Below the pieces are notes generated by a model. It saw only the letters and a list, made by a program, of their open reading frames with translations, had not been told where the DNA came from and did no database searches. Of a stretch of 64,000 nt of DNA, positions 5,681-51,365 are shown in pieces. Both the position numbers and the translations under genes were made by a program. The DNA is taken from positions 62,001-126,000 of the IMG/VR virus record IMGVR_UViG_3300042484_001840; one strand, written 5' to 3'. The stretch comes from a virus. Each line of letters opens with the position of its first letter. The stretch's first letter is position 1.

Positions 5681-6900
5681 CCGATCTATCCAAGCGCCTC
5701 GCTGCTGTAGAGAATCAAGCAGAACTTGAGGACGCAGTAAAGAAGAAGAAGTCACCCCAAGGATGGGAACCTGGTGTTGTCTGGGAAGGCACAAAAGGAA
5801 CTATCACCACAAGTGCGGTATATGAACCGCCGAAGGAATGGTCATCACTCCTGAAAGAACGAGGACTAGACCCCGACCTTTACGAGATCGTCGGAGACAC
5901 AATTCGCTGGACATCTTTTGATGGATGGAAGCGAGATGCACCTGGCGACGAGGCATATAGCACTATTTGTTATTCTTACAAGGCTGATATACGCCTGAAG
6001 TCCCCAGAACGACCCAATTTGGACGAGATATATCAGGCTATAAAGAAGGCAAAAAAGCCCTCTAAAGAAGCACCCTCTGGAGACACCACTTTTGTCATTG
6101 CTCTGTCGGATTGGCAGACAGGAAACCGTGATGGTGGCGGAGTACAAAAGCAGGTAGAAGAGATCGCCGCGCTTCCAGATAAATTAGTTAAAAGAGTTCG
6201 TGACCTGCGCAAATGCGGTACGAAAATCAACCATATCCTTATTGTTGGCTTAGGCGACCTAGTAGAAGGAACTTGCGGACACTACCCAGCCCAGCAATTC
6301 CGTATTGAAGTAGACCGCCGAGAGCAGATGAAGATTGTCCGAAGGGGAATCCGCGACATCATTATGGCTCTAGCCCCCTTAGTAGAGCGCGTCACCGTTA
6401 CTGCTGTTGGTGGAAACCACGGTGAAAACAGAGGATTGAGCGGAAAAGCCTTCACCACAACTGGAGACAACGACGATGTTGCCATCTTTGAGCAGATTGC
6501 CGAAGCCTTCCAGATGAACAAAGAAGCCTTTCCCAATGTCAGTTGGCGTATTCCGCTAGAACGATTGACCACTTCTGTTGAGATTAACGGCAAGATCATC
6601 GCCTTTACTCACGGACACCTTAGTAAGCCTTCTGGGAACGCCGCACAATCTGTATGGAATTGGTGGAAAGACCAGGCTCACGGACGCGCTCACCCAGGTG
6701 TTGCCGATGCCGACATCCTCGTAACAGGGCATTATCACCACTTCAATGCCAAAGAACAGGAAGGGCGAGCACTATTCGTCTGCCCAAGCATCGTATCTGT
6801 TGGTGAATACTTCCAAGATACCTATGGAGTCAAGACTCGTGCAGGCACTTTGACCTTCTGTGTCAATAGCGTCGGATGGACAGAAATGTCAATTGTCTAA
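5677..6900 (+). CDS. Calcineurin-like metallophosphoesterase
   Basis: 407 residues. The metallophosphoesterase core occupies the C-terminal two thirds: LSDWQTG (motif I), GLGDLVEG (motif II), GGNHGENRG (motif III), FTHGH and TGHYHHF (motifs IV-V), the full dimetal ligand set. The N-terminal 130 residues form an accessory domain. Such phage enzymes act on DNA ends or nucleotides; substrate unknown. Coupled to the HTH-like gene upstream. Confidence 0.85.
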   Translation: MTDLSKRLAAVENQAELEDAVKKKKSPQGWEPGVVWEGTKGTITTSAVYEPPKEWSSLLKERGLDPDLYEIVGDTIRWTSFDGWKRDAPGDEAYSTICYSYKADIRLKSPERPNLDEIYQAIKKAKKPSKEAPSGDTTFVIALSDWQTGNRDGGGVQKQVEEIAALPDKLVKRVRDLRKCGTKINHILIVGLGDLVEGTCGHYPAQQFRIEVDRREQMKIVRRGIRDIIMALAPLVERVTVTAVGGNHGENRGLSGKAFTTTGDNDDVAIFEQIAEAFQMNKEAFPNVSWRIPLERLTTSVEINGKIIAFTHGHLSKPSGNAAQSVWNWWKDQAHGRAHPGVADADILVTGHYHHFNAKEQEGRALFVCPSIVSVGEYFQDTYGVKTRAGTLTFCVNSVGWTEMSIV

Positions 6901-8939: not shown

Positions 8940-9494
8940 ATGAACCGTTTAGATTTAGGCGACTTCAAGTTCGCAGAGAGTCTTGAACGACTCGTCACCC
9001 GACCGAAGGCATTGAATGGCATCGCCCTTCCGACTGTCCGTAACCTAGTTGAGTCGCGTCTTATCAACGCTGACTTTGACGCAGTGATTACATCAGGACC
9101 AAAGGAACGCGAAGTCAACTGGGATCACCCCAACCATCGCGTCTGGGAGTTTGACGATTCGGAAGATAGTTACGGTCCTAAGTTGGAACAAGTAGAAGAG
9201 ATGATCTTTTGGGGTGCACAGCAAGACGATGTTCTCGTTCACTGTCACGCAGGGATGAGTCGCTCTACTGCTACGGCTTGGGGTATCTGTATCGCTAAGG
9301 GCTTGGATGCCAAGGAGAGTCTTGTGGCTCTACTGGATGCTCACCCTAATGATGATGGATACGACGAGAAGCGTTGGTTCTGCCCGAATGGACTTCTTGT
9401 CCGCCACATGCAGACCATCTTCAATGATCCGACTCTCTTGGATATCCGTGAAGAAGTGCTACGCGACGACAAGCGCATCAGCCACTGGCTGTGA
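8940..9494 (+). CDS. Dual-specificity/tyrosine-type protein phosphatase
   Basis: 184 residues. VLVHCHAGMSRSTA contains the PTP signature HCxxGxxRS with nucleophile C102 and R108. An upstream DD pair (about 96-97) and DSEDS region could supply the general acid. Phage copies may reverse host Ser/Thr/Tyr phosphorylation or act on nucleotides. RBS AAGGAG before ATG; own promoter upstream. It converges with and overlaps the helicase-loader-like gene. Confidence 0.85.
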   Translation: MNRLDLGDFKFAESLERLVTRPKALNGIALPTVRNLVESRLINADFDAVITSGPKEREVNWDHPNHRVWEFDDSEDSYGPKLEQVEEMIFWGAQQDDVLVHCHAGMSRSTATAWGICIAKGLDAKESLVALLDAHPNDDGYDEKRWFCPNGLLVRHMQTIFNDPTLLDIREEVLRDDKRISHWL

Positions 9495-9947
9495 GAGTGC
9501 GTATAACTGTTTCTCATATTCCTTGACAATCTTGTCGTAGGTAGAGAGGAACATCTCTCGGTCCCCATTCGTGTGGAGGTTGTAGGAACTAACTCCTCCT
9601 AGAGCCTTCACCGTTTGGGAGACTAGAGCGTGGATAGATTCAGATGAATAGTTGCCAGAGTGTGCCGCATCAGCAGCACGCCTGAACTGCTGCCATGCTT
9701 CTCCGCCACTGGGTACTGATTCGCCGTGGATCAAATCAACAGTTCTCCGACGCACTTCGCCTACGCGAGGCATGTAACTGTTTTCTATAACAAGGTCGTC
9801 AAGCACGAGGTCAACATCATCCTTGTTTAAATCTTTGAGAATGCGCCACCACGCTTCGTACGCCTGCTTCTGATAGACAGGGTTAATCTGCTGGTTCCAA
9901 CTCAGATAAATTCTGTCAACAATTTGACACAGTTCTGTTTTAGTCAT
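9459..9947 (-). CDS. Helicase-loader-like replication protein (G39P-type N-terminus)
   Basis: 162 residues. The N-terminal 70 residues (VYQKQAYEAWWRILKDLNKD, then VDLVLDDLVIENSYMPRVGEVR) match the W-xxx-L-xx-L ... P-x-x-x-E-V/L-R pattern of SPP1 G39P-like helicase loader/inhibitor domains. The rest is helical. Paired with 9940-10347 by an 8-bp overlap, as phage replisome-organiser and loader genes often are. Family assignment is by pattern, not search. Confidence 0.58.
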   Translation of the reverse strand: MTKTELCQIVDRIYLSWNQQINPVYQKQAYEAWWRILKDLNKDDVDLVLDDLVIENSYMPRVGEVRRRTVDLIHGESVPSGGEAWQQFRRAADAAHSGNYSSESIHALVSQTVKALGGVSSYNLHTNGDREMFLSTYDKIVKEYEKQLYALSQPVADALVVA

Positions 9948-10347
9948 CTAAGAAGCCACCCTTGCTGTCATCCGCCACCGTGAGGTTAGAGAACCGCTCA
10001 ATGTGAGCCGAGTCCCGCAGGATTAATTCTAGCGAGTTGTAAACCGTTCCGCTTGGATTTTGTCCCATGTGCCAAGGAGATAGGGCACAGCCCCGTATCG
10101 CATCCTTAACAATGTCCGATCCAAATTGGTTGACTGCCACTGTGATCAACTTCGTCCGCTCGTCGGAGAGGCGGGGCTTCCTACCTTTACCTTGGAAAAA
10201 AGTATCTACATAGGTTTGCCAGACCTGAAGAATGATTGCGGGGCTAACAGGTTGTAGATAGTTAGCGCGCTTCTTCTCGGTGCGGGACTGTTTAGTTGGT
10301 TCATCTAAATCAAATAGACTTGGTTGTTCTGAAATAATTTCAGGCAT
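9940..10347 (-). CDS. Replisome organiser-like protein
   Basis: 135 residues from ATG 10347, chosen because GGGGAG lies just upstream; a longer start at 10398 lacks an RBS. The C-terminal half (QVWQTYVDTFF, KLITVAVNQFG, VYNSLELILRDSAHIERF) has the layout of the conserved C-terminal domain of phage replication-initiation proteins. N-terminus is charged and probably flexible (SLFDLDEPTKQ). Likely works with the next gene in loading the replicative helicase. Confidence 0.52.
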   Translation of the reverse strand: MPEIISEQPSLFDLDEPTKQSRTEKKRANYLQPVSPAIILQVWQTYVDTFFQGKGRKPRLSDERTKLITVAVNQFGSDIVKDAIRGCALSPWHMGQNPSGTVYNSLELILRDSAHIERFSNLTVADDSKGGFLDD

Positions 10348-10852
10348 AATTCTCCCCTTAACTTTAGTAATTCTTAGTTTACCAACAAGGATAAACATAT
10401 ATCAACTTATTCCACGGAATATTTAACAAGAAGAAAAGAACACATTACCCTGGAGTAATACGAAACTTGTTTCGTTTTACGACACCAGTAAAGAGTGCAA
10501 CATAACTAAAGAGAGATTAGGTAAGACCTGGAGGGGGGTCTGGGGGGAACCATCGTCTTTTGCTGTCGTACTTTGGGGTACGCTCAAGCAAGCCCTTCGG
10601 ACTAGAGTATGTTGTTCTGACGGGTATGAGGCCTCGTCGTGTTTGTAAGATACTGACTATAGCGCGAGTCATACGCCACCGTCGCATATAGGACATTTTT
10701 TTTGAAAAAGTTTTGCAACTGTAACATTCGTTGCGTGTTTTAGTGTAATGTAGTTACGCGGGGAATGTTTCGCCCCCTTATATTCACCGCATGGTTGAGG
10801 TGGTGGAGGTTAAGTGCGTCATGAGCGTTCTTTAACCTCCACCAACTCCCAC
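10348..10852. other. 505-bp non-coding region
   Basis: No credible gene on either strand. It holds the leader of 10347, a G-rich patch (about 10528-10550), one copy of the CGCCACCGTC motif at 10671 and a TTTTTTTTGAAAAAG run at 10687. A 12-bp stem hairpin near 10802-10843 marks the end of the leftward gene 10853. Confidence 0.6.
10802..10843 (-). terminator. Hairpin terminator after 10853 gene
   Basis: GGTGGAGGTTAA (10802-10813) pairs perfectly with TTAACCTCCACC (10832-10843), loop 18 nt, 10 bp beyond the gene end. No U-tract, so termination efficiency is uncertain. Confidence 0.6.
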
Positions 10853-15777: not shown

Positions 15778-15810
15778 TTATCCACAAAGTTATCCACAGA
15801 CTTATTCACA
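15778..15810. other. DnaA-box mini-cluster
   Basis: TTATCCACA at 15778 and 15790 and TTATTCACA at 15802, all same orientation with 12-bp periodicity. Confidence 0.75.
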
Positions 15811-15958
15811 GGCAAAAAATAGGGGGTCATCCGCCACCGTACGAAAAAGAGACACACAGTCCCGTACCCCAAATCGGGGAGCGGGGCTATCAACCTTCAT
15901 GACAAATTCTGTCAATACTTGCAAGCATTAGCCCCGCAACCGAACTAATGTTCGTAGC

Positions 15959-18909: not shown

Positions 18910-19308
18910 TCAGGCGACCTGAGAGATATTGACTACATTCTCAGTGTCGTTGGCGATTTCCGTGACTCGTACTTGGTCGTACTTAGTGACGGTAGTAATC
19001 GCCTCAGCAATATCGCTGGGGATAACGCCCAACTCAACGGCGGACTTGAATTTCTTACCGTCCACTTCAAGTTTGGTAACTTGCTTGAGAACGATAGGCG
19101 AGACAAGTTCGGTCAATGCCTTCAGGTTGTACTTGGGTCGCTCACCATTGACGATGAGAACCTTTTGTCCGTCCACGACATTGAAGTTGAGTCCCTTTTC
19201 AGCGTAGGCAAGTTTCAAGTCTGCCTCTGCTTGGGCTTTAGCCTTTTCAGCATTTTCCAATGCTTGCTTGGCATTCAAGTAGTTGAGAGTGATTTGTGTG
19301 AGATTCAT
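18910..19308 (-). CDS. Coiled-coil hypothetical protein (132 aa)
   Basis: N-terminal helix rich in Ala/Glu/Lys (AKQALENAEKAKAQAEADLKL), then a beta part (NVVDGQKVLIVNGERPKYNL). The Ala-rich coil resembles small phage scaffolds but nothing supports that here. Leader CACTACTGAAAGGGACAAA before ATG. Not recognised. Confidence 0.65.
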   Translation of the reverse strand: MNLTQITLNYLNAKQALENAEKAKAQAEADLKLAYAEKGLNFNVVDGQKVLIVNGERPKYNLKALTELVSPIVLKQVTKLEVDGKKFKSAVELGVIPSDIAEAITTVTKYDQVRVTEIANDTENVVNISQVA

Positions 19309-20298: not shown

Positions 20299-20330
20299 TT
20301 ATCCACAGGCTGGGGATAACCTGTGGATAA
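20299..20330. other. DnaA-box mini-cluster
   Basis: TTATCCACA at 20299 and inverted TGTGGATAA at 20322, facing each other. Confidence 0.7.
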
Positions 20331-21479: not shown

Positions 21480-21523
21480 TGTGGATAACCTTTTCCACAG
21501 CCTGTGGATAACCCTGTGGATAA
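21480..21523. other. DnaA-box mini-cluster
   Basis: TGTGGATAA at 21480, 21503 and 21515 plus TTTTCCACA at 21491, four boxes in 44 bp. Confidence 0.75.
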
Positions 21524-28380: not shown

Positions 28381-28654
28381 CATTATTCGTGTTACAGAAT
28401 GGTTACAGATTTATGACGGAAATGTAATGGAGAGCCAAAATGCCGATATGGGCAATGTGTCACCATTACACGCTAGAACGCCCCCTAAGCGCCTGACCCC
28501 CCTCTCCGCCCCTAGCACCCAATCCTGAGCCTGAAACGGCTGAGAGACGATTTCCACAGATTTATACACAGCCTCTGAGCAGGGGAAATGTGGCAAAACC
28601 CCAGCGTGAGGGCACTTTTTGCATAACCCCTGCTAGTGGGCTTACACACGGTGG

Positions 28655-28950
28655 TTATCCACAGAAGTGACCACTTACCACCAGATTTCACCAGTAGTTA
28701 TCCACAGGGGTGTGTATAAAGTTGGGGATAAGGTTATCCACAGGATATCCACAGGGTGTGGATAAAGTAGTTGTACTGTGCAAGTAAGTTATCCACAGGG
28801 GGTGTGGATAAAGGTGTGGATAAAGTTTTCCACAGGGTGTGGATAAACCTGTGGAAAAGATAGTTGTAGTCTACAAGTAAGTTTTCCACAGGATGGGGAT
28901 AAAGTTGTGGATAAAGTTATCAACAGGGCTGTGGATAAAGTTGTGGATAA
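28655..28950. other. DnaA-box array (13 boxes), candidate origin
   Basis: TTATCCACA at 28655, 28698, 28734, 28789; TGTGGATAA at 28757, 28803, 28815, 28838, 28906, 28930, 28942; TTTTCCACA at 28826 and 28882; TGTGGAAAA at 28850; plus near matches ATATCCACA and TTATCAACA. This is the high-affinity host DnaA consensus in both orientations. Confidence 0.82.
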
Positions 28951-29114: not shown

Positions 29115-29147
29115 TTTTCCACAGGTTTTTCCACAGGCTGTGGATAA
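29115..29147. other. DnaA-box mini-cluster
   Basis: TTTTCCACA at 29115 and 29127, TGTGGATAA at 29139; 12-bp period as at 15778. Confidence 0.75.
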
Positions 29148-29870: not shown

Positions 29871-29893
29871 TTATCCACAGGGCTGTGGACAAC
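29871..29893. other. DnaA box with degenerate partner
   Basis: TTATCCACA at 29871 and TGTGGACAA facing it at 29884. Confidence 0.55.
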
Positions 29894-30636: not shown

Positions 30637-30772
30637 CGAACAGGTGTTCGCACGGAGACACCGAACAAGTGTTCCCCGAACGGGTGTTCGTACCGAACAA
30701 GTGTTCGCTTGATAAAAATACGCACCGACGCATAAAAATACACCGAACAGGTGTTCTACGAACAGGTGTTCG
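30637..30772. promoter_or_regulatory. Array of six SOS-box-like palindromes (CGAAC-N4-GTTCG)
   Basis: 14-bp sites start at 30637, 30662, 30677, 30694, 30744 and 30759; four are perfect and two have one end base changed. Two sites abut TTGATA (30709) and TTGACA (30774) -35-like hexamers. CGAAC-N4-GTTCG is the LexA box of actinobacteria and Bacillus. It fills the 316-bp gap before the SNF2 helicase gene. Confidence 0.82.
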
Positions 30773-30858: not shown

Positions 30859-32766
30859 ATGAATGGGCAACTAATACTAGGAACGGACACGCTTGTTGCC
30901 GTGTTCCCGTACGATAAGGCGCAAGTTGCGCGGATCAGAACCATACGCGGGGCTGTATGGGACAACGCATCTAAAACATGGCGGATACCCCTTACTCAAT
31001 TCTCCAAGGCAACAGAATTGGCGTTGGAACTCGGCTGGTGGATTAGCCCCGAAGTAGCAATGCTGAACATACCCAGTGAACCCGTGGACATGATGACGGT
31101 GAACAGCAAAACCGTGAGGCTTTCGTTCTCGTTTGACCCAGTAAAAGTGCGTGCGGTTAAGCGGATACCAGGCATAACTTGGGACAAAAAGACGGCATCG
31201 TGGGAAGCCCCGCTCTCGTCACTATCGGAATGTGCTGACTGGGCGAAGCAGTTTGACATGGAAGTAAGCGAAGATACGCAGACGCAAATATCAGAAATAA
31301 CCGAAACCAGGTCAAAACTGATTGAGCAGTCAAGGCAAACCGATGCTGACCTTGAAGTGGCGGGACTACCACTGCTTCCGTACCAAAGAGCGGGCGTGAA
31401 GTACGCTGCTGAGGCACGCAGATGCTTCATTGCTGACGACATGGGACTTGGTAAAACACTCCAAGCAATCGCAACTCTTGAGTATGTTATGGATAGTTAC
31501 CCCGCAGTTGTTGTCTGCCCACCCACGCTGGTACTGAACTGGAAGAACGAGTACAACAAGTGGCTACCAGGTAGAAATGTTGTCACGGTGAAGAACCGAA
31601 GCGAATTCCCAGACGGGGCTTATGATGTTGTCGTTGTTGGTTACTCAAACATCAACGCATGGGCGAACAAACTCCAAAAGCACCGAAGTTATGTGTTTGA
31701 CGAGTCGCATTACTGCAAAAGTGCTGATGCGCAGCGCACGAAGGCTGCCATCAAGATGGCGAAGTCGGCACCGAAAGAAGGAATTGTTCTTTGTTTGACT
31801 GGTACGCCCGTAACCAACCGCCCCGCTGAATACGCCCCGCAGTTGGACATGCTTGGAAAACTTTCTGATTTTGGTGGCAAATGGGGCTTTTACCGACGAT
31901 ATTGCGCGGCTTTCCGAGACAGATTTGGGCAATGGAACATCTCAGGCAACTCCAACTTGGAAGAACTCAACGACAGACTCCGAGGAAACTGTTATATCCG
32001 AAGAACTAAGGACCAGGTACTGGAAGAACTCCCACCCGTGCGTCACAACACGATCCTGATTGAAGGAACTGATGCGGGGCTGAAGGAGTATCGCAAGGCG
32101 GAAAACGACATCGTAAAATATCTAATGGAGCGTGCACGGCAAATCGCTGAAGAACTTGGTGAATCACCGAACTCCGCTGCTGTGCGAGCAAAAATGAGGG
32201 CAGAACGGAACGAACATTTGATTCGCATCGGCGTTCTTCGGAAGTTAGCCGCTAAAGCGAAGATGCCCGCTGTTATTGAATGGGTTGATGGGCGCATTGA
32301 AGCGGGGCAAAAGGTGGTTATCGCCGCTCACCACCGTGAAATCGTTGATGAACTTGCTCAGAAGTATGGGAACATAAAGATTCAGGGAGGCATGGATGTC
32401 AATGATGTGGAAGCAAACAAGAAGATGTTTCAAGAGAAAAGTGTCACAGAAAGCCCCGTTATCGTTCTTTCCATCCAAGCAGCGAAAACAGGTCACACGC
32501 TGACCGCTTCTCAAGATGTTCTCTTCGTGGAACTTCCATGGACACCGAGCGATGTGGATCAAACTTACTCAAGATGCCACCGACTGGGACAAAAGGGCAG
32601 TGTAACAGCAACTTATCTGCTTTGTCAAGGAACTGTTGATGAAAAAATCTACGATGTCATTGAGCAGAAGCGTGGAGTTGTGAACGCTGCGACTGAAGGA
32701 ACCGAAGTGAGCGGGGCTGGTGGAGAATTGTTTGACCATTACCTCCAACTGTCAATGAAATACTGA
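30859..32766 (+). CDS. SNF2-family (SMARCAL1-like) DNA helicase/translocase
   Basis: 635 residues. Walker A DDMGLGKT (193-200), DESH box, LTGTPVTNRP (motif III), and QTYSRCHRLGQKGSV (motif VI) identify a complete SNF2 ATPase. The first 135 residues hold two tandem copies of a beta/alpha unit (13-60 and 87-133, each F.xD...V..I/..I.G..WD.....W..PL) like HARP-type domains of annealing helicases. Suited to fork restart or recombination. SOS-type array upstream suggests DNA-damage control. Confidence 0.92.
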   Translation: MNGQLILGTDTLVAVFPYDKAQVARIRTIRGAVWDNASKTWRIPLTQFSKATELALELGWWISPEVAMLNIPSEPVDMMTVNSKTVRLSFSFDPVKVRAVKRIPGITWDKKTASWEAPLSSLSECADWAKQFDMEVSEDTQTQISEITETRSKLIEQSRQTDADLEVAGLPLLPYQRAGVKYAAEARRCFIADDMGLGKTLQAIATLEYVMDSYPAVVVCPPTLVLNWKNEYNKWLPGRNVVTVKNRSEFPDGAYDVVVVGYSNINAWANKLQKHRSYVFDESHYCKSADAQRTKAAIKMAKSAPKEGIVLCLTGTPVTNRPAEYAPQLDMLGKLSDFGGKWGFYRRYCAAFRDRFGQWNISGNSNLEELNDRLRGNCYIRRTKDQVLEELPPVRHNTILIEGTDAGLKEYRKAENDIVKYLMERARQIAEELGESPNSAAVRAKMRAERNEHLIRIGVLRKLAAKAKMPAVIEWVDGRIEAGQKVVIAAHHREIVDELAQKYGNIKIQGGMDVNDVEANKKMFQEKSVTESPVIVLSIQAAKTGHTLTASQDVLFVELPWTPSDVDQTYSRCHRLGQKGSVTATYLLCQGTVDEKIYDVIEQKRGVVNAATEGTEVSGAGGELFDHYLQLSMKY

Positions 32767-39745: not shown

Positions 39746-39778
39746 TTATCCACAGGCTGTTGATAAACCTGTGGATAA
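39746..39778. other. DnaA-box mini-cluster
   Basis: TTATCCACA at 39746 and TGTGGATAA at 39770, with a one-mismatch box between them. Confidence 0.7.
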
Positions 39779-41701: not shown

Positions 41702-41805
41702 CCTTTATCAAAAGAAATATTTATTATAGTTATGTGACATAATCAACAACTATCATAACAATAATGATTACATATATAGCAATTACATATCAGTTATACA
41801 CAACC

Positions 41806-41968
41806 TGTGGATAAGGTGTGGATAACTTTGTACACAGGCTGTGGGTAACGCTGTGGATAACGATGAGTGCTGTGGATAATGCTGTGTATAACCTGTGTAT
41901 AACCTGTGGATAAAGCGAGGCATCAACTGTGGATAACTAGCACCATCTGTGGACAAAGATGTGGATAA
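41806..41968. other. Second DnaA-box array (7 exact plus variants)
   Basis: TGTGGATAA at 41806, 41817, 41852, 41871, 41905, 41928, 41960 and TGTGTATAA at 41883 and 41894, nearly all in one orientation, unlike the mixed array at 28.7 kb. Confidence 0.82.
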
Positions 41969-42079
41969 CTGTTGCGAAAATGAGGATGCGGGGCTATTTT
42001 TCAGACGACCTCAGAACAGGGGGGTAGAGACACACACACCATATTGCATTGTTTCCATATAGATTTATCCAAAGTCGTC

Positions 42080-42117
42080 GTAGTGCACTACCCTTTAATC
42101 TCGGTGTAGTGCACTAC
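42080..42117. promoter_or_regulatory. Paired 12-bp palindromes GTAGTGCACTAC
   Basis: Two identical perfect palindromes at 42080-42091 and 42106-42117, 26 bp apart. Typical dimer-binding operator geometry. They lie downstream of the leftward gene 42133 and beside the DnaA array. Confidence 0.7.
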
Positions 42118-43538: not shown

Positions 43539-44138
43539 TTATGCGCTCCTTATAGCAGTTTTGATGTATGTGATTGCTTTGCCAATGTCTCGGGCGTAGT
43601 TGAATATCCAGTCATTGGCATTCTTGTATGAATTGTCTTTGATTGGGTGCCAAAAGAAATGACCCTCATCTATGGGTGTGTGTAAAAAATCTTTGAGTTC
43701 AGAGACAGCCAAAAAGTTCTTATTGAAGTCAGTCAATTTTCTAACGATTGACTTGCCTGTATCTATATTGTATGCGTGTCGGTCAAATTGACTTGAAGAT
43801 AAATCAACAAAATGAGTTCGTGTTACCGTCACTAGATGGGCATTGAAATCGCCTGTAGTGCTTTTGATTTCTCCGACCCAGTTCGGTCCAACACCAACAC
43901 TCCAAGCAGTCTTAGACCATTTATCCCGTGGTACAGAGGTGCTGATGCTCTCTACCATCTCCTCATTGCAAACAAACGCAGACACAGGTATCACTTTGTT
44001 CTGAATATTGAAGTAGTTGAATACTTCTGATGTGATCCGTGCTGAAAGTATGCAACAATTCTTTTTGACATTTGGGGCTACTTCTGCTTGCCAAAATTCG
44101 TTGAGTTTCTCGGTTACAAATGCTTGTTTAGTAGTCAT
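43539..44138 (-). CDS. Hypothetical protein, papain-like layout (199 aa)
   Basis: ATG 44138 overlaps the previous stop. KKNCCILSARITSEVFNYF followed by VIPVSAFVCN, a central FNAHLVTVT and HFVDLSSSQFD suggests a Cys...His...Asp order as in transglutaminase/papain-like folds. Other Cys/His are not conserved here to prove it. Function inferred only. Confidence 0.58.
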   Translation of the reverse strand: MTTKQAFVTEKLNEFWQAEVAPNVKKNCCILSARITSEVFNYFNIQNKVIPVSAFVCNEEMVESISTSVPRDKWSKTAWSVGVGPNWVGEIKSTTGDFNAHLVTVTRTHFVDLSSSQFDRHAYNIDTGKSIVRKLTDFNKNFLAVSELKDFLHTPIDEGHFFWHPIKDNSYKNANDWIFNYARDIGKAITYIKTAIRSA

Positions 44139-44359
44139 GAAATTTTGATTTTCTTGATTTTGATTTCGTCTAGCGGAAGCCAACCGAACCATTTGTTATT
44201 GATGCTTTTCAATAGAACCTGATTGACTCTATTTGGATTGGGCATCATAAAGAATTCAGGTCCGTGTTCTTTGACTCGGTTGCGTGTTCTCTTTGATGCA
44301 GTTTGACCGTTGATTGTAATAAATACTTCTTCGGTAATTTGAGGGTCAGGCGCTGTCAC
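44135..44359 (-). CDS. Basic hypothetical protein (74 aa)
   Basis: TEEVFITINGQTASKRTRNR, then MPNPNRVNQVLLKSINNKWF. Basic and compact. Coupled on both sides by ATGA overlaps. Not recognised. Confidence 0.6.
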   Translation of the reverse strand: MTAPDPQITEEVFITINGQTASKRTRNRVKEHGPEFFMMPNPNRVNQVLLKSINNKWFGWLPLDEIKIKKIKIS

Positions 44360-44811
44360 TTCTCTGCCTTTCTCTCTTCTTTCGGATTACGAACTTGGTA
44401 AAGACCTTTTTTGATCTTTCTAAAGTACTGAGGGTTTGATTCAATAAACTTAAGAATTGTCGGATATGACATTTCGGATAAGTCTGTCAAAAATTGAGTA
44501 GTGACGGTTGCTTCAGCGTTGTCATCTAGCCACTTGTAGATTTCGTCATACTTGTCAACACGCTTAACTTTTGGTTCTAGACCATCAAACTCGGGATTGA
44601 CCTTGGCAATAATGCTCGGTGGGAACATATATTTACTGAGTGTTTCAGCGGTGACTTTGCCTTCGTATTTTTGCATGGTGTAGCGAAGGCGAATAATCTC
44701 TGACGGCTCCCGCATTTCTTCGGGTGGAACGCTTGTGGCATTACCATACTTAGCAATGAGATTTTGAATTGCGATGCGGTATTCGTTTTCGGCGGTTTCA
44801 ATAGTTGTCAT
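44356..44811 (-). CDS. Putative winged-helix protein (151 aa)
   Basis: C-terminal half KYDEIYKWLDDNAEATVTTQ, LTDLSEMSYPTILKFIESNP and KIKKGLYQVRNPK looks like a winged helix with wing. N-terminal helical oligomerisation part. First gene of the 43242-44811 operon. Start in leader CTAGCAAAGGACAATT. Confidence 0.58.
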   Translation of the reverse strand: MTTIETAENEYRIAIQNLIAKYGNATSVPPEEMREPSEIIRLRYTMQKYEGKVTAETLSKYMFPPSIIAKVNPEFDGLEPKVKRVDKYDEIYKWLDDNAEATVTTQFLTDLSEMSYPTILKFIESNPQYFRKIKKGLYQVRNPKEERKAEK

Positions 44812-44904: not shown

Positions 44905-45237
44905 TTAGTCAACTATGTTTTTGGTGAATTTGCTTTCTTTTACCTTTTTGACAATTCTTGAGATGTCATCTTCCGAAGCATCGTCAACAATGAAGAGTTC
45001 TGCCGTGGATGTTGACCCAAGGTTCATCTTGTAACAATCCTTGATAAATTCATATGAATCACTAGCCATACTTTGTTCGCCATTTTTTGTGTAGCGAACA
45101 GCAGTTTTCTTATCTTCTAGGAGAACGGCGAACGGAATGTTCCCATTTTTGTTTTCATAGTAGAAAATTGCTGGATATGTGAATTTTTCTTTCAGATTCT
45201 TCTTTGCTCGCTCTGTTACATCAATATCTTGCTTCAT
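44905..45237 (-). CDS. Hypothetical protein (110 aa)
   Basis: Lys-rich, with FTYPAIFYYENKNGNIPFAV, EDKKTAVRYTKNGEQ and a C-terminal amphipathic helix (ISRIVKKVKESKFTKNI). ATG adjoins the kinase-like gene stop, so made together. Not recognised. Confidence 0.6.
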   Translation of the reverse strand: MKQDIDVTERAKKNLKEKFTYPAIFYYENKNGNIPFAVLLEDKKTAVRYTKNGEQSMASDSYEFIKDCYKMNLGSTSTAELFIVDDASEDDISRIVKKVKESKFTKNIVD

Positions 45238-47276
45238 CAGAGTCCGCCAGTGGAATTGCTTGCGCCGAAGCCCAAGTCACTAAATGTCTCCGTAAGAGCG
45301 CCGGGGTTGTCTTCTAGATATTTAAGTCGTGTCATAGCAAGTGTCCTCATCGCATTCATATGCGCTTTCTCAGTAGGTGTCAATTCTATACCACGACCAC
45401 TAAGCCTGTCAAGTGAAAAAATCTGGTCAAGTTGGGCACGAATTCTTTCTACGGCAATTTTTTGCCCATTATTAAATCGTTCCATTGCTTCATCATCACT
45501 AAAAACCCTAGTTCCAAAATCGCCCAAATAATTAAAAAATATGTTTCCCCCACTACTTGAATAGTTTGTCGGAGTCATATCTTTGCGATATAGGGCATGT
45601 TCGTCAAATTCGGTGCCTAAGACTTCTACATCGTAACCTATTGACATAAGTTCTGACGCTCGCCCTCCGAACATTAAACCATTGTCAATCACGCCGAGTC
45701 GCTGGTCGCCCTTTTCGTCATATGCAACTTTTACATTAAACTCATGGCGGTCAAGATTGTCAAAAATATAATCAAGCGCAAGAATTTGGGCAACATCTTC
45801 AGGACTTACATTGTCTGCGTCAATTCCACCAGCATCGCCAGAGTCACGCCAAAGTACAGTCTCACCCTCATCGTCCATTTGAGTTTTTAGGGGCACTGTC
45901 GTTTCCCATGACTCAATACTCCTCATTGCTGTCCAGCGAACACTTCTTCCCTGTGTGTTATTCCAGTCTGGTGATTGAGGGTTAACAACTGGAACCCTTG
46001 TCCCTGTACGAATTTCCTTGGAATCATTCCTAGCAGCGAGGTCAAGAACGGCGGATGCTTCCATCCCGATATTTTCAAGAAGTCCATCGTTAGCGCCAAA
46101 TGTTGAAGCCTTCATGTACCAGACTTCGCCAGTTTCTTTATCTTCTACCTTAAATACAGTCCAGAGTCCGCCATACTCATGACCACCATTTGACTCTTTA
46201 CCTTGATTACCCTTGAGCGCCTTGAATTTAAAACGCTTATTTTCAAATGTTGTGTCCTTGTCTATCGTGTCTGGTTCAAAGTTCCCAGTCATGATGTCCT
46301 CAAATGTGATGTCAACACCCTGAGGATTTAGTAGACCTAGCCCACTATTTTCATCAATAATAATATTTTCGTCAAAGACTGCGGCTGCAAAAATATCATC
46401 ATCAAGGTCAGCGACATCGCCACCTCCATAGTGAATATCGGCTACAGCATTGCGATACTTCTCGTCATCAATTGTACTAATGCGGGTTGGACCAATAAGT
46501 TCAGCCTTTGCTTCTTCTGCTCCAGCAAATTGGACCTTGGGCTTTCCGTATCGCATGACTTCTACGCCATCGGGTACATTTCCAGATCCGCCAATTCTGT
46601 TAATAAAATCGTCGTAGTCTCGCTTTGAAAGAACTAATATTTCCTTATCCGTCTCAACAACATAATGGTCGCCCGAAGTAAATGCGAGTTCTTGTGCTTT
46701 TTCGTCAGCACGCTTAAATGCGCGATTTCTATTGATACGAATAGGGACACGCTGGTCCTGAGGTAGACCTCGCGCGAGGGCACTAAATGCATCTTCAAAA
46801 TCTTCTGCTGGCTCTTCTGGAGCACTGGTATCTGCAATGCTCGCATCAAAACCAAGACGATCTTGTGAAATTTCACTAGATGGCTGTGGAGGGTCAAGAA
46901 TGTTCTCAACCGATGGAACCCGAGTTTCAAGACCGGGGTATCCAATTTCCTCAAGCGATGAAGATCCCAGCGATAGCCCACGCTCTGAAAGTGATGGGTA
47001 TCCAAGTTTTCCTAATTGAGAAGGTTTCCCGCGCTTTTTTGCAGACGCAGCCGACCCATAGGAAGGCTTGTAGGAAATATCCGCACCGTCAGAACCGACC
47101 ACCCTCATTGAGGGACGGTTCATTGAGGTTAATCCCCGCTGAACCTCATTGCCAATTTCGTCAAGTAAGCGACTCCCAGCAGGGCGTTCCCATGCTGTAC
47201 CTTCTTGGACAATGCCGTCATTGTCAGCATCTATGGCATCTGGGTCATAGGGTTCTACGCGGAGTTTTAGTGCCAT
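45237..47276 (-). CDS. PI4K/HipA-like kinase fused to Ca-loop N-terminus
   Basis: 679 residues. The N-terminus DADNDGIVQEGTAWERPAG is an actinophage motif resembling an EF-hand loop, followed by a long disordered Pro/Ser region (about 45-165). The C-terminal third shows a kinase-like layout: GEVWYMKAS (possible nucleotide Lys), then FDNLDRHEFN (catalytic-loop D509, N514) and GVIDNGLMF (metal D531), as in PI3/4-kinase and HipA-like folds. May phosphorylate protein or lipid; could be a virion-injected effector. Confidence 0.62.
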   Translation of the reverse strand: MALKLRVEPYDPDAIDADNDGIVQEGTAWERPAGSRLLDEIGNEVQRGLTSMNRPSMRVVGSDGADISYKPSYGSAASAKKRGKPSQLGKLGYPSLSERGLSLGSSSLEEIGYPGLETRVPSVENILDPPQPSSEISQDRLGFDASIADTSAPEEPAEDFEDAFSALARGLPQDQRVPIRINRNRAFKRADEKAQELAFTSGDHYVVETDKEILVLSKRDYDDFINRIGGSGNVPDGVEVMRYGKPKVQFAGAEEAKAELIGPTRISTIDDEKYRNAVADIHYGGGDVADLDDDIFAAAVFDENIIIDENSGLGLLNPQGVDITFEDIMTGNFEPDTIDKDTTFENKRFKFKALKGNQGKESNGGHEYGGLWTVFKVEDKETGEVWYMKASTFGANDGLLENIGMEASAVLDLAARNDSKEIRTGTRVPVVNPQSPDWNNTQGRSVRWTAMRSIESWETTVPLKTQMDDEGETVLWRDSGDAGGIDADNVSPEDVAQILALDYIFDNLDRHEFNVKVAYDEKGDQRLGVIDNGLMFGGRASELMSIGYDVEVLGTEFDEHALYRKDMTPTNYSSSGGNIFFNYLGDFGTRVFSDDEAMERFNNGQKIAVERIRAQLDQIFSLDRLSGRGIELTPTEKAHMNAMRTLAMTRLKYLEDNPGALTETFSDLGFGASNSTGGL

Positions 47277-49022: not shown

Positions 49023-49653
49023 AAACTGTTTCCTCATCGTCGTCTATATCTGCTGTCTGCGCTTCAATTTCCGCAAGGGAAGGCAAAGCCCTAACATTTT
49101 CTCCTAGAATTTGCTTAACCGTATCAGATGGAAGTACTCCAGATAATCCCATAAGTTCAAGAAGTGCTCGCGCCTCTGTCTCGGGGTTAAATTTATTGAT
49201 TTCTGCTGGTCCAGCATTGGAAGTACCAGCAAGAATAGCCCGTGGCAAACTATCTATTGTCTCCACTGTCAGGTTGACGGTCTGTTGCTCCATGCCTAGT
49301 AGTTTTGCTCGCCTGTCCATAATTCCAAGTACCTGTTGTATTGCCTTCAAATCTGGCTCTACGGTAATTTCAGTACCATCATCTAGCGTGGTTTTACGGT
49401 GCTGGGTTAGCGGCCAGATTGCTTGTTGCAATGCGTCTAGTCGCTCTAATTCCATGCGAAGCACTTCGGGATATGCCATTAGTGCTTCTTTATTCATTTT
49501 TTCCAGTTGACGCTTAATAGCAGCATTAACTGATTGGGTCGTAATATTGAAACGCCGACCAATTTCCTGCGGAGAAACACCTGCTTGACGCATCTTGAAA
49601 ATACGCAAATCGCGTTCAGCCAAAAATTCTTTTGTCAAGCCTTTGCTACTCAT
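49015..49653 (-). CDS. Terminase small subunit candidate
   Basis: 212 residues. N-terminal HTH (RIFKMRQAGVSPQEIGRRFN, ITTQSVNAAIKRQL), then a long helical rod (PEVLRMELERLDALQQAIWP) and DLKAIQQVLGIMDRRAKLLG, the typical layout of small terminases that oligomerise and bind packaging sites. C-terminus acidic. Upstream it overlaps the primase gene by one base. The large terminase is not in the window. Confidence 0.65.
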   Translation of the reverse strand: MSSKGLTKEFLAERDLRIFKMRQAGVSPQEIGRRFNITTQSVNAAIKRQLEKMNKEALMAYPEVLRMELERLDALQQAIWPLTQHRKTTLDDGTEITVEPDLKAIQQVLGIMDRRAKLLGMEQQTVNLTVETIDSLPRAILAGTSNAGPAEINKFNPETEARALLELMGLSGVLPSDTVKQILGENVRALPSLAEIEAQTADIDDDEETVYE

Positions 49654-51365
49654 CAGTCACCTTCTAGGAATTCTAGCACTTCAAACGGAAATACCTTCCC
49701 ACGCTTCATTTTAGTCGGCCATCTACGCTGGTCACGGGCACCTCGGAAGTGTCTGACCTCGTAAACATAGCCATCAACTGATGTTGGATCTGGCTGTAAG
49801 GACAAGCCAAATTCAGGCCAGCGTGACCATACGGCGGAACCAAATGGTCGTAGATCTCTTGATGCCATGGCGCTACCAAGCGGAGCATGATGCTCAAACC
49901 AAAAGGCGCACTTAAAATACTCACGAAGAGTGTCAAAGTATTTAGCAATCTCAATTGCTACCGATTCGCTTGTTCTTCCGCCTGGGTCAATAAATGACTT
50001 ATAAATAGGACCAAGGAATACAATGTCAGGCTTAACTATTTCAAGTTTTTCCTCAATCATCATCCTGTCCTGCATTCTCATCAAGTCAATACCGTCAGGC
50101 TTGATAAGTAGATGGGCATCAGGAACATGCTTATTGCCGTAATGCAATGTCGCATTATAGATATTTCGCGATGTTCGCCTAATGATTCTTTCTGGGTTTT
50201 CCAAGTCAATCATGAGAGTACGCATAGGTGGAATTGCCTCAAAGGTAAAAGGATGCAGACCAGAGGAAACGCAAAGTGCCACCTGTCGTGCAAGCATTGT
50301 TTTTCCAACACCCTCGGCAGCAACAACCATAACTCGCTCGCCACGCTCTAGGAGACCAGGTATAACCCAATCGTATGTATCCGTCTCTGACTCATTAACG
50401 AATTCTCCCCACTCAACTAATCGTCCCTCGTTCTTTACTGCCACCACCTGAGGGTCTAATTCAAGAAGAATTCTTTCAGCACGCTGGATTTTTGCTTGAT
50501 GGGATAAATTATCTTTCTCAAATAATTTGTGAAGTTTGTCTAAGACTGGCGCATATGGATCGTGAGCCTCAGGCTCATCTACCATTTGATCAAAATCACG
50601 CAAGTCCTCAAGTTTCCCGCCACCCTTAAGAAGATCAGTTACATCTTTTACCTTGTCGGCAATTTTAACTGAGACTTGACACTCTGCTTGGATTAATCTA
50701 TTTGAAACATCAATAGCGTGCTTTTTACCAACTTCATCGTTGTCAGCAACTATGACGATCTTTGCACCAGCAAGTGTCTCGGTGTGAATGTCTAGCCATT
50801 TACCAGCACCGCCCGGCATTGTTGTTGCAGGTATTCCCATTTTAATAAGGGTATTTGAGTCCTTTTCACCCTCAACTACCCAAATTGTTTCGTCTGCATC
50901 ACGAGCAGCACAAATCATTGGCAAGTTATATAGGACTTTTTCAATCCCATCAAGATTCATTACCCATTCGCCACTTACTGGGTCTACACGGCGTTGACGG
51001 AATGTTTTTTTACCATCCTCATCAACAAATCTTTGTTTTTGAAATAGTAATTCACCCAAAGCATCACGATAATCGTAAGTTTCTACGAGGGTTAATCTTT
51101 GTTTCTTTTTTGGAATATCTTTCGGTGGCATTAGATCAGAAACTGTCATTCCAACCGACCCACAAATAGTTTCCACATCACACGGAATTCCGCGGTGACA
51201 TGTAACTAGGACGCGACCATCAGTACCTTGACCAATTGAAAGGGATGGGTTTTTATCATCATTTCTACACGGGCATTGTGCTGACCAATTTTGACCGTTT
51301 TGTTTTACGCCATTAAGTTTTGATAGAAATTTCTCTACCTCTGATGAAGTATTTTCCCTTGCCAT
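49653..51365 (-). CDS. Primase-helicase (zinc finger, TOPRIM, RecA-like ATPase)
   Basis: 570 residues. An N-terminal zinc finger (CPCRND...TCHRG...C, about 31-62) precedes TOPRIM motifs IWVVEGEKDS and IVIVADNDEVG. AAEGVGKTMLARQVAL (Walker A) and IVFLGPIYKS (Walker B type) make a RepA/RecA-like ATPase. Such a fused primase-helicase lays primers and unwinds phage DNA. ATG with GAGGA RBS. Confidence 0.9.
   Translation of the reverse strand: MARENTSSEVEKFLSKLNGVKQNGQNWSAQCPCRNDDKNPSLSIGQGTDGRVLVTCHRGIPCDVETICGSVGMTVSDLMPPKDIPKKKQRLTLVETYDYRDALGELLFQKQRFVDEDGKKTFRQRRVDPVSGEWVMNLDGIEKVLYNLPMICAARDADETIWVVEGEKDSNTLIKMGIPATTMPGGAGKWLDIHTETLAGAKIVIVADNDEVGKKHAIDVSNRLIQAECQVSVKIADKVKDVTDLLKGGGKLEDLRDFDQMVDEPEAHDPYAPVLDKLHKLFEKDNLSHQAKIQRAERILLELDPQVVAVKNEGRLVEWGEFVNESETDTYDWVIPGLLERGERVMVVAAEGVGKTMLARQVALCVSSGLHPFTFEAIPPMRTLMIDLENPERIIRRTSRNIYNATLHYGNKHVPDAHLLIKPDGIDLMRMQDRMMIEEKLEIVKPDIVFLGPIYKSFIDPGGRTSESVAIEIAKYFDTLREYFKCAFWFEHHAPLGSAMASRDLRPFGSAVWSRWPEFGLSLQPDPTSVDGYVYEVRHFRGARDQRRWPTKMKRGKVFPFEVLEFLEGD

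Follow-up and report, generated by a model that had tools for sequence, protein, structure and literature searches.

DnaA-box arrays and LexA-type sites in a large phage genome, with a possible oriC-like start site

Background

Plasmid and P1 replicons are mobile elements that make use of host DnaA, and the oriR of P1 carries about five DnaA boxes adjoining the RepA iterons. In bacterial oriC, consensus DnaA boxes follow one another in one direction at 11–12-bp steps next to the weakest DNA, and the same arrangement is found at one of the arrays described here, array 2. Unlike bacterial oriC, this array is phage-borne and accompanied by several further arrays, and its AT-rich element is not conserved in distant relatives; the likeness is one of sequence.

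The datA locus of E. coli and plasmid-borne titration boxes resemble the phage boxes in being dense sets of DnaA boxes away from promoters which could bind much DnaA. The phage set, however, is viral, comprises more boxes and is paired with LexA-type sites, and its binding is predicted. DnaA and LexA sites also lie side by side in the uvrB/DARS1 promoter region of E. coli, but this concerns a single chromosomal gene, whereas the sites described here are viral, the LexA boxes are of the actinobacterial type and, in G000, 1.7 kb separate the two kinds of array.

DnaA boxes in phages are already known, for example in T5 (PMC13250531), likewise a large tailed phage with boxes in a repeat-rich non-coding region. 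T5 has few boxes, located in the terminal repeat, whereas the present phage has 29 within 26 kb, which lie outside the terminal overlap. In the open literature we found no report of phage DnaA titration or phage LexA decoys and no description of a comparably large phage array set with LexA-type operators; as far as this literature was searched, the combined DnaA/LexA arrays appear to be new.

The phage record and its likely host

The record IMGVR_UViG_3300042484_001840 (G000) comprises 145,042 bases. The window is the stretch of 64,000 bases that corresponds to its bases 62001–126000, and positions refer to the window unless stated otherwise. Genes were predicted with a simple codon-usage caller made for the present analysis, not with a published one.

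The ends of the record (L009:1-11341 and L013:7702-19042) share an overlap of 11,341 bases that contains 40 mismatches (99.63% identity). The ends of a near relative, G001 (128,966 bases), overlap by 193 bases and the break point is a different one, beside array 2. As the ends overlap and the break points differ, both records look circular, with roughly 134 kb for G000 and 129 kb for G001, and the 11,341-base overlap probably reflects a circular assembly from mixed strains that was left unclosed, and not a true terminal repeat. A long terminal repeat like that of T5 was rejected because of the 40 mismatches and because G001 breaks elsewhere.

The structural genes include terminase, portal, head protease, major head and tail-fibre proteins; primase-helicase, SSB, SNF2-type helicase, thymidylate synthase and class II ribonucleotide reductase are also encoded. 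A near-identity search of reference phages gave no match. The nearest relatives of the primase-helicase and the terminase include phages of Arthrobacter, Gordonia and Brevibacterium, and since the LexA-type boxes described below have the actinobacterial form as well, the host is likely to be an actinobacterium.

Number and placement of DnaA boxes

There are 31 copies of the strict box TTATCCACA in the 145-kb record, against an expectation of 1.35–1.5 (Markov order 1–3) or 4.65 (order 5). Among 1,680 permutations of its letters the box ranks first, the runner-up having 9 occurrences and the mean being about 1.3, and the reversed-pattern control has no match. Nearly all strict boxes (29 of 31) are confined to the 34 kb between 9.4 and 43.3 kb of the window (binomial p 1e-15). 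All 29 are non-coding, although only 42% of that region is non-coding (p 1e-11); the remaining two (record positions 19242 and 35896) lie inside genes. The preliminary description of this DNA, made from the letters alone, had noticed no boxes in the outer parts of the window. Counting over the whole record bears out both the excess (31 against 1.35–4.65) and the uneven density, the structural half not being equally dense and only two of the 31 boxes lying outside the 34 kb.

Array 2 and its flanks comprise the following features:

41704–41803: AT-rich stretch of 100 bp with 20% GC, touching array 2
41794–41802, minus strand: opposite DnaA-box variant TTATACACA just outside array 2, absent from the aligned part of G001
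41806–41968, plus strand: DnaA-box array 2, seven TGTGGATAA and two TGTGTATAA, period about 11 bp
42080–42117: two perfect palindromes GTAGTGCACTAC beside array 2, 26 bp apart

The composition and single orientation of array 2 were recovered exactly as previously described, with TGTGGATAA starting at 41806, 41817, 41852, 41871, 41905, 41928 and 41960 and TGTGTATAA at 41883 and 41894, all on the plus strand. The duplex stability of 41704–41803 is within the lowest 0.015 percent of the genome, and we regard this stretch as a candidate unwinding element. Its counterpart in G001 is shorter and still at the 0.34 percentile for 50 bp. Such a low-stability AT-rich element at the boxes is thus present at array 2 and in G001, and absent at array 1 and in the distant relatives G016/G017. 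The palindrome GTAGTGCACTAC has just two copies in the record, one of which is altered in G001.

The other boxes of the window form a second large array and six smaller groups:

15778–15810, minus strand: mini-cluster of two strict boxes and TTATTCACA, lying some 20 bp upstream of one copy of the repeated early promoter
20299–20330: mini-cluster of two strict boxes and one near-consensus box
21480–21523: mini-cluster of three strict boxes and TTTTCCACA, between two convergent genes and terminators
28562–28570, minus strand: TTATACACA variant upstream of array 1
28655–28950: DnaA-box array 1, 19 boxes at no more than one mismatch, 11 of them strict, in both orientations
28769–28785, plus strand: 17-mer AGTTGTACTGTGCAAGT within array 1, a weaker copy of a conserved element
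28862–28878, plus strand: 17-mer AGTTGTAGTCTACAAGT within array 1, shared with the DnaA-box flanks of G016/G017
29115–29147: mini-cluster of two TTTTCCACA and one strict box
29871–29892: pair of one strict box and TTGTCCACA, between convergent genes
39746–39778: mini-cluster of two strict boxes and one variant

For array 1 the best box period is 11.5 bp, for array 2 it is 11.0 bp. Of the mini-clusters named previously, those at 15778, 20299, 21480, 29871 and 39746 are real, while the one at 29115 consists of two TTTTCCACA and a single TGTGGATAA (29139). The genes converging on the clusters at 21480 and 29871 are supported by codon-position differences between G000 and G001, and since the flanking genes converge, these two clusters lie outside the promoters of their neighbours. 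An element GCGGGGCTA/TAGCCCCG is found close to each DnaA cluster. Except for the cluster at 15778, the boxes have no fixed position relative to the early-promoter-like repeat.

LexA-type sites

A second kind of site occurs in the same region and had escaped the preliminary description, as had the relatives of the phage and the promoter-linked DnaA boxes of G034 (see below):

15941–15954: single LexA-type box CGAACTAATGTTCG near the 15778 DnaA cluster
30637–30772: LexA-type SOS-box array, six CGAACN4GTTCG sites at no more than one mismatch
30859–32766, plus strand: SNF2-family helicase, downstream of the LexA-box array

The array is placed directly before the helicase gene, over and upstream of two promoter-like -35 elements, and G001 has an equivalent array with 8 sites. 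The bacterial genomes that contain pairs of CGAACANNTGTTCG are mainly those of actinobacteria. The largest family among the genes adjoining these pairs accounts for 28 of 113, and one representative of it carries a LexA DNA-binding domain (PF01726) together with an S24 peptidase domain. Since the bacterial pairs precede LexA-family genes, the CGAACN4GTTCG sites are, as judged by their sequence, LexA-type SOS boxes of the actinobacterial form.

No LexA DNA-binding domain was found in the phage by Pfam, and the DnaA families PF00308 and PF08299 are absent from G000 and G001. As the phage has neither, both kinds of site should address host proteins. A parS site is absent from G000.

Arrays in related phages and in public sequences

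G001 retains most of the DnaA boxes, and array 2 differs there by one repeat unit. The difference in conservation between box bases and spacers in G000 and G001 is not significant (p 0.34). In G016/G017, a cluster with four same-direction DnaA boxes is found at the position syntenic to array 2, adjoining orthologues of 43539–44192, 44356–44811 and 45237–47276 that are 36–60% identical. This counterpart also contains about seven LexA-type boxes (at most one mismatch), a perfect, canonical parS TGTTTCACGTGAAACA and the 17-mer AGTTGTAGNCTACAAGT, which is also present in array 1 of the window. Another relative, G021, has three strict DnaA boxes, one variant and four LexA-like sites.

Among the matches listed, viral contigs commonly carry tandem DnaA boxes, so DnaA-box arrays as such are not unique. 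The combination with LexA-type sites was examined at 120 viral loci with the LexA pair, sampled among the matches listed: 33 had a strict DnaA box within 1 kb and 19 had two or more, whereas same-letter shuffled 9-mers gave averages of 1.55 and 0.03, respectively. Bacterial loci with the same LexA pair had a DnaA box within 1 kb in 3 of 118 cases and two or more in none of 118. The 120 viral loci (among the matches listed) form 64 nucleotide clusters, 12 of which have two or more DnaA boxes. In the sampled public viral contigs, paired actinobacterial-type LexA boxes therefore lie near DnaA boxes far more often than expected by chance.

In the reverse sample of 229 viral loci with DnaA arrays, LexA-type sites were not clearly enriched (13 against 2 and 10 in two controls), which presumably reflects different hosts for most of these phages. 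Gamma- and alpha-proteobacterial-type LexA boxes were not enriched beside the DnaA arrays of these 229 loci either. Four freshwater actinobacterial genomes, which may not be hosts, contain 1–5 strict boxes per roughly 2 Mb compared with 31 in the phage, and in three of the four a strict box is located next to dnaA.

Possible functions of the arrays

The preliminary description had offered two readings, titration of DnaA and secondary origins; both are partly supported and neither is proven. The origin idea is supported because the 100 bp adjoining array 2 rank with the least stable DNA of the genome, the titration idea because there are many clusters, some of them in convergent gaps, and because LexA boxes co-occur in phages. 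We tentatively favour, with somewhat less than even confidence, an initiation at array 2 that depends on DnaA and would thereby also capture it, ahead of a dedicated decoy, which follows close behind, and then of promoter control.

From the observed sites, their density and placement, the weak stretch and the arrays of the relatives, we infer binding of DnaA, melting, initiation and an effect on the host. The boxes would be high-affinity sites, and they should address the DnaA of the host because no phage DnaA was found. Host DnaA would load cooperatively on the regularly spaced arrays, and array 2, with its same-direction boxes against a weak AT-rich stretch, would act like a bacterial oriC. 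The AT-rich DNA would be melted by DnaA, whereupon a phage- or host-encoded helicase/primase could start replication. The other clusters might be accessory DnaA reservoirs, and with accumulating phage copies the whole box set would pull DnaA from the host oriC. If the arrays do initiate replication, a large virulent-type phage would use host DnaA and not just an initiator of its own.

The replication genes of the window bear on this in both directions:

9459–9947, minus strand: weak match to the G39P helicase loader/inhibitor (E 0.0022), overlapping the initiator-like gene
9940–10398, minus strand: protein related to phage replication initiation (O-like) proteins
45237–47276, minus strand: 679-aa protein next to the replication genes
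49653–51365, minus strand: primase-helicase (Toprim and RecA-like AAA)

The phage has no recognisable copy of Pol A or Pol III alpha and may therefore lean on the host replisome. At the sequence level, the absence of phage DnaA, Pol A and Pol III alpha, the primase-helicase and SSB genes, and the boxes of actinobacterial genomes, which are rare and lie by dnaA, would all count for an origin, as would the box density, the non-coding placement, the 11-bp phasing, the weak stretch and the syntenic cluster in G016/G017. On the other hand, DnaA may be unnecessary, since the phage itself encodes an O-like initiator-type protein and possibly a helicase loader, the G39P-like protein, whose predicted structure is of low confidence (pLDDT 57). 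The AT-rich stretch is absent at the syntenic array of G016/G017, and eight or so clusters are more than an origin needs. That box bases are not significantly better conserved than spacers between G000 and G001 (p 0.34) also speaks against an origin, as does GC skew; the latter was rejected as a marker because the skew turns with gene direction, so that it is explained by gene orientation and provides no origin signal.

Somewhat less probable is a dedicated decoy, in which clustered consensus sites for host DnaA, LexA and, in relatives, ParB would allow the multiplied phage DNA to stop host initiation and disturb other programmes. In E. coli, extra boxes are known to titrate DnaA (PMC5835720, PMC12371093), which counts for this explanation. 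It is also suggested by the six-box LexA array in the same region with its 8 sites in G001, by the mixture of 4 DnaA boxes, about seven LexA boxes and the perfect TGTTTCACGTGAAACA in G016/G017, and by the proximity of DnaA boxes to 33 of 120 viral LexA-pair loci (among the matches listed) against 3 of 118 bacterial ones. Further indications are the clusters at 21480 and 29871, whose flanking genes converge and are supported by codon-position tests, and the 31 boxes of the phage, which outnumber the 1–5 in four freshwater actinobacterial genomes that may not be hosts. The promoter-like position of the LexA boxes, however, suits regulation, parS is seen in G016/G017 only, and the 229 viral loci with DnaA arrays lack a clear LexA enrichment. 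The wider proposal that composite arrays of DnaA, LexA and sometimes ParB sites serve actinobacterial phages as protein-free multi-target decoys over replication timing and SOS is more doubtful still. As decoys, the arrays would enable the phage to stop host replication and to alter the SOS response without any protein. Whether they are origins or decoys, DnaA/LexA arrays recur in unrelated viral contigs and constitute sequence-defined elements which can be directly cloned and tested.

Control of transcription is a third live option, because another phage contig, IMGVR_UViG_3300027974_000040 (G034; L511-L513), builds single DnaA boxes into about 20 promoter-like elements; we consider it unlikely for the present phage. 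DnaA together with LexA on phage promoters would tie expression to the replication or DNA-damage state of the host, and the joint control of E. coli uvrB by DnaA and LexA, with seven and four sites, respectively, is a precedent (PMC6015884). G034 (60.4 kb) contains 33 strict DnaA boxes and 30 promoter-like CAACTA-N14-CCGATA elements, three control patterns giving 0–1. Many of these elements lie just before gene starts, often about 16 b from the ATG as if leaderless. An exact TGTGGATAA is found upstream of 20 of the 30, in 16 cases at exactly 9 bp, and 8 elements have no DnaA box, most of these showing CGAATAAA at that place. To judge from their arrangement, the elements look like a DnaA-linked phage regulon. 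In G000 itself, two arrangements are consistent with such control: ahead of the SNF2 helicase, LexA sites adjoin two -35-like elements, and a promoter copy follows closely downstream of the 15778 cluster. Yet the G034 promoter is absent from G000, whose own roughly 20 repeated promoters have no boxes at a constant position. At least two clusters occupy convergent gaps, and 19 boxes would be a large number for a single promoter.

A structural or DNA-entry signal resembling the injection stop region of T5 is very improbable. The T5 stop signal has been reported with repeats and DnaA boxes (PMC13250531). T5 has boxes in its terminal repeat at 6121, 6194 and 9510, with iss annotated at 9140–10149, and blastn also matched the arrays to T5-like and other large phages. 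Against this, the G000 and G001 assemblies look circular with different break points, and the 11.3-kb end overlap differs at 40 sites and contains no arrays. Chance or a compositional artefact has a negligible probability, being refuted by the counts (first of 1,680 permutations, none for the reversed pattern).

Additional observations

The 679-aa protein (45237–47276) gave no clear family or structure match. It matches the same stretch of relatives as a 2041-aa protein elsewhere in the record, so that the two look like paralogues. A tryptophan halogenase-like gene is located at L013:2756-4231 on the minus strand (phrog_2928, E 8e-99). The idea of a Neisseria uptake sequence (AGGTCGTCTGAA at 42000) was dropped because there is a single copy.

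About twenty early-promoter-like repeats (TGTAATTNTTACACCC...TATACTTAT ... GTAGTA) precede small ORFs between 15247 and 29446 of the window. The element GCGGGGCTA has 14 copies, which are found solely at 10238–41988 of the window, near every DnaA cluster and often together with TAGCCCCGC; similar words, AAGCCCCGC, recur in distant relatives. In distant relatives (L271:9571-10097 and L272:4591-5117), DnaA boxes, LexA-type boxes, a perfect parS TGTTTCACGTGAAACA and TTAGGNNNNCCTAA share a single intergenic region. Finally, the 69.5-kb contig G027 contains three consecutive modules composed of terminator-like sequence and DnaA boxes (L349:60-1760), which in two of the three are followed by LexA boxes and then by a promoter-like stretch and a small ORF.
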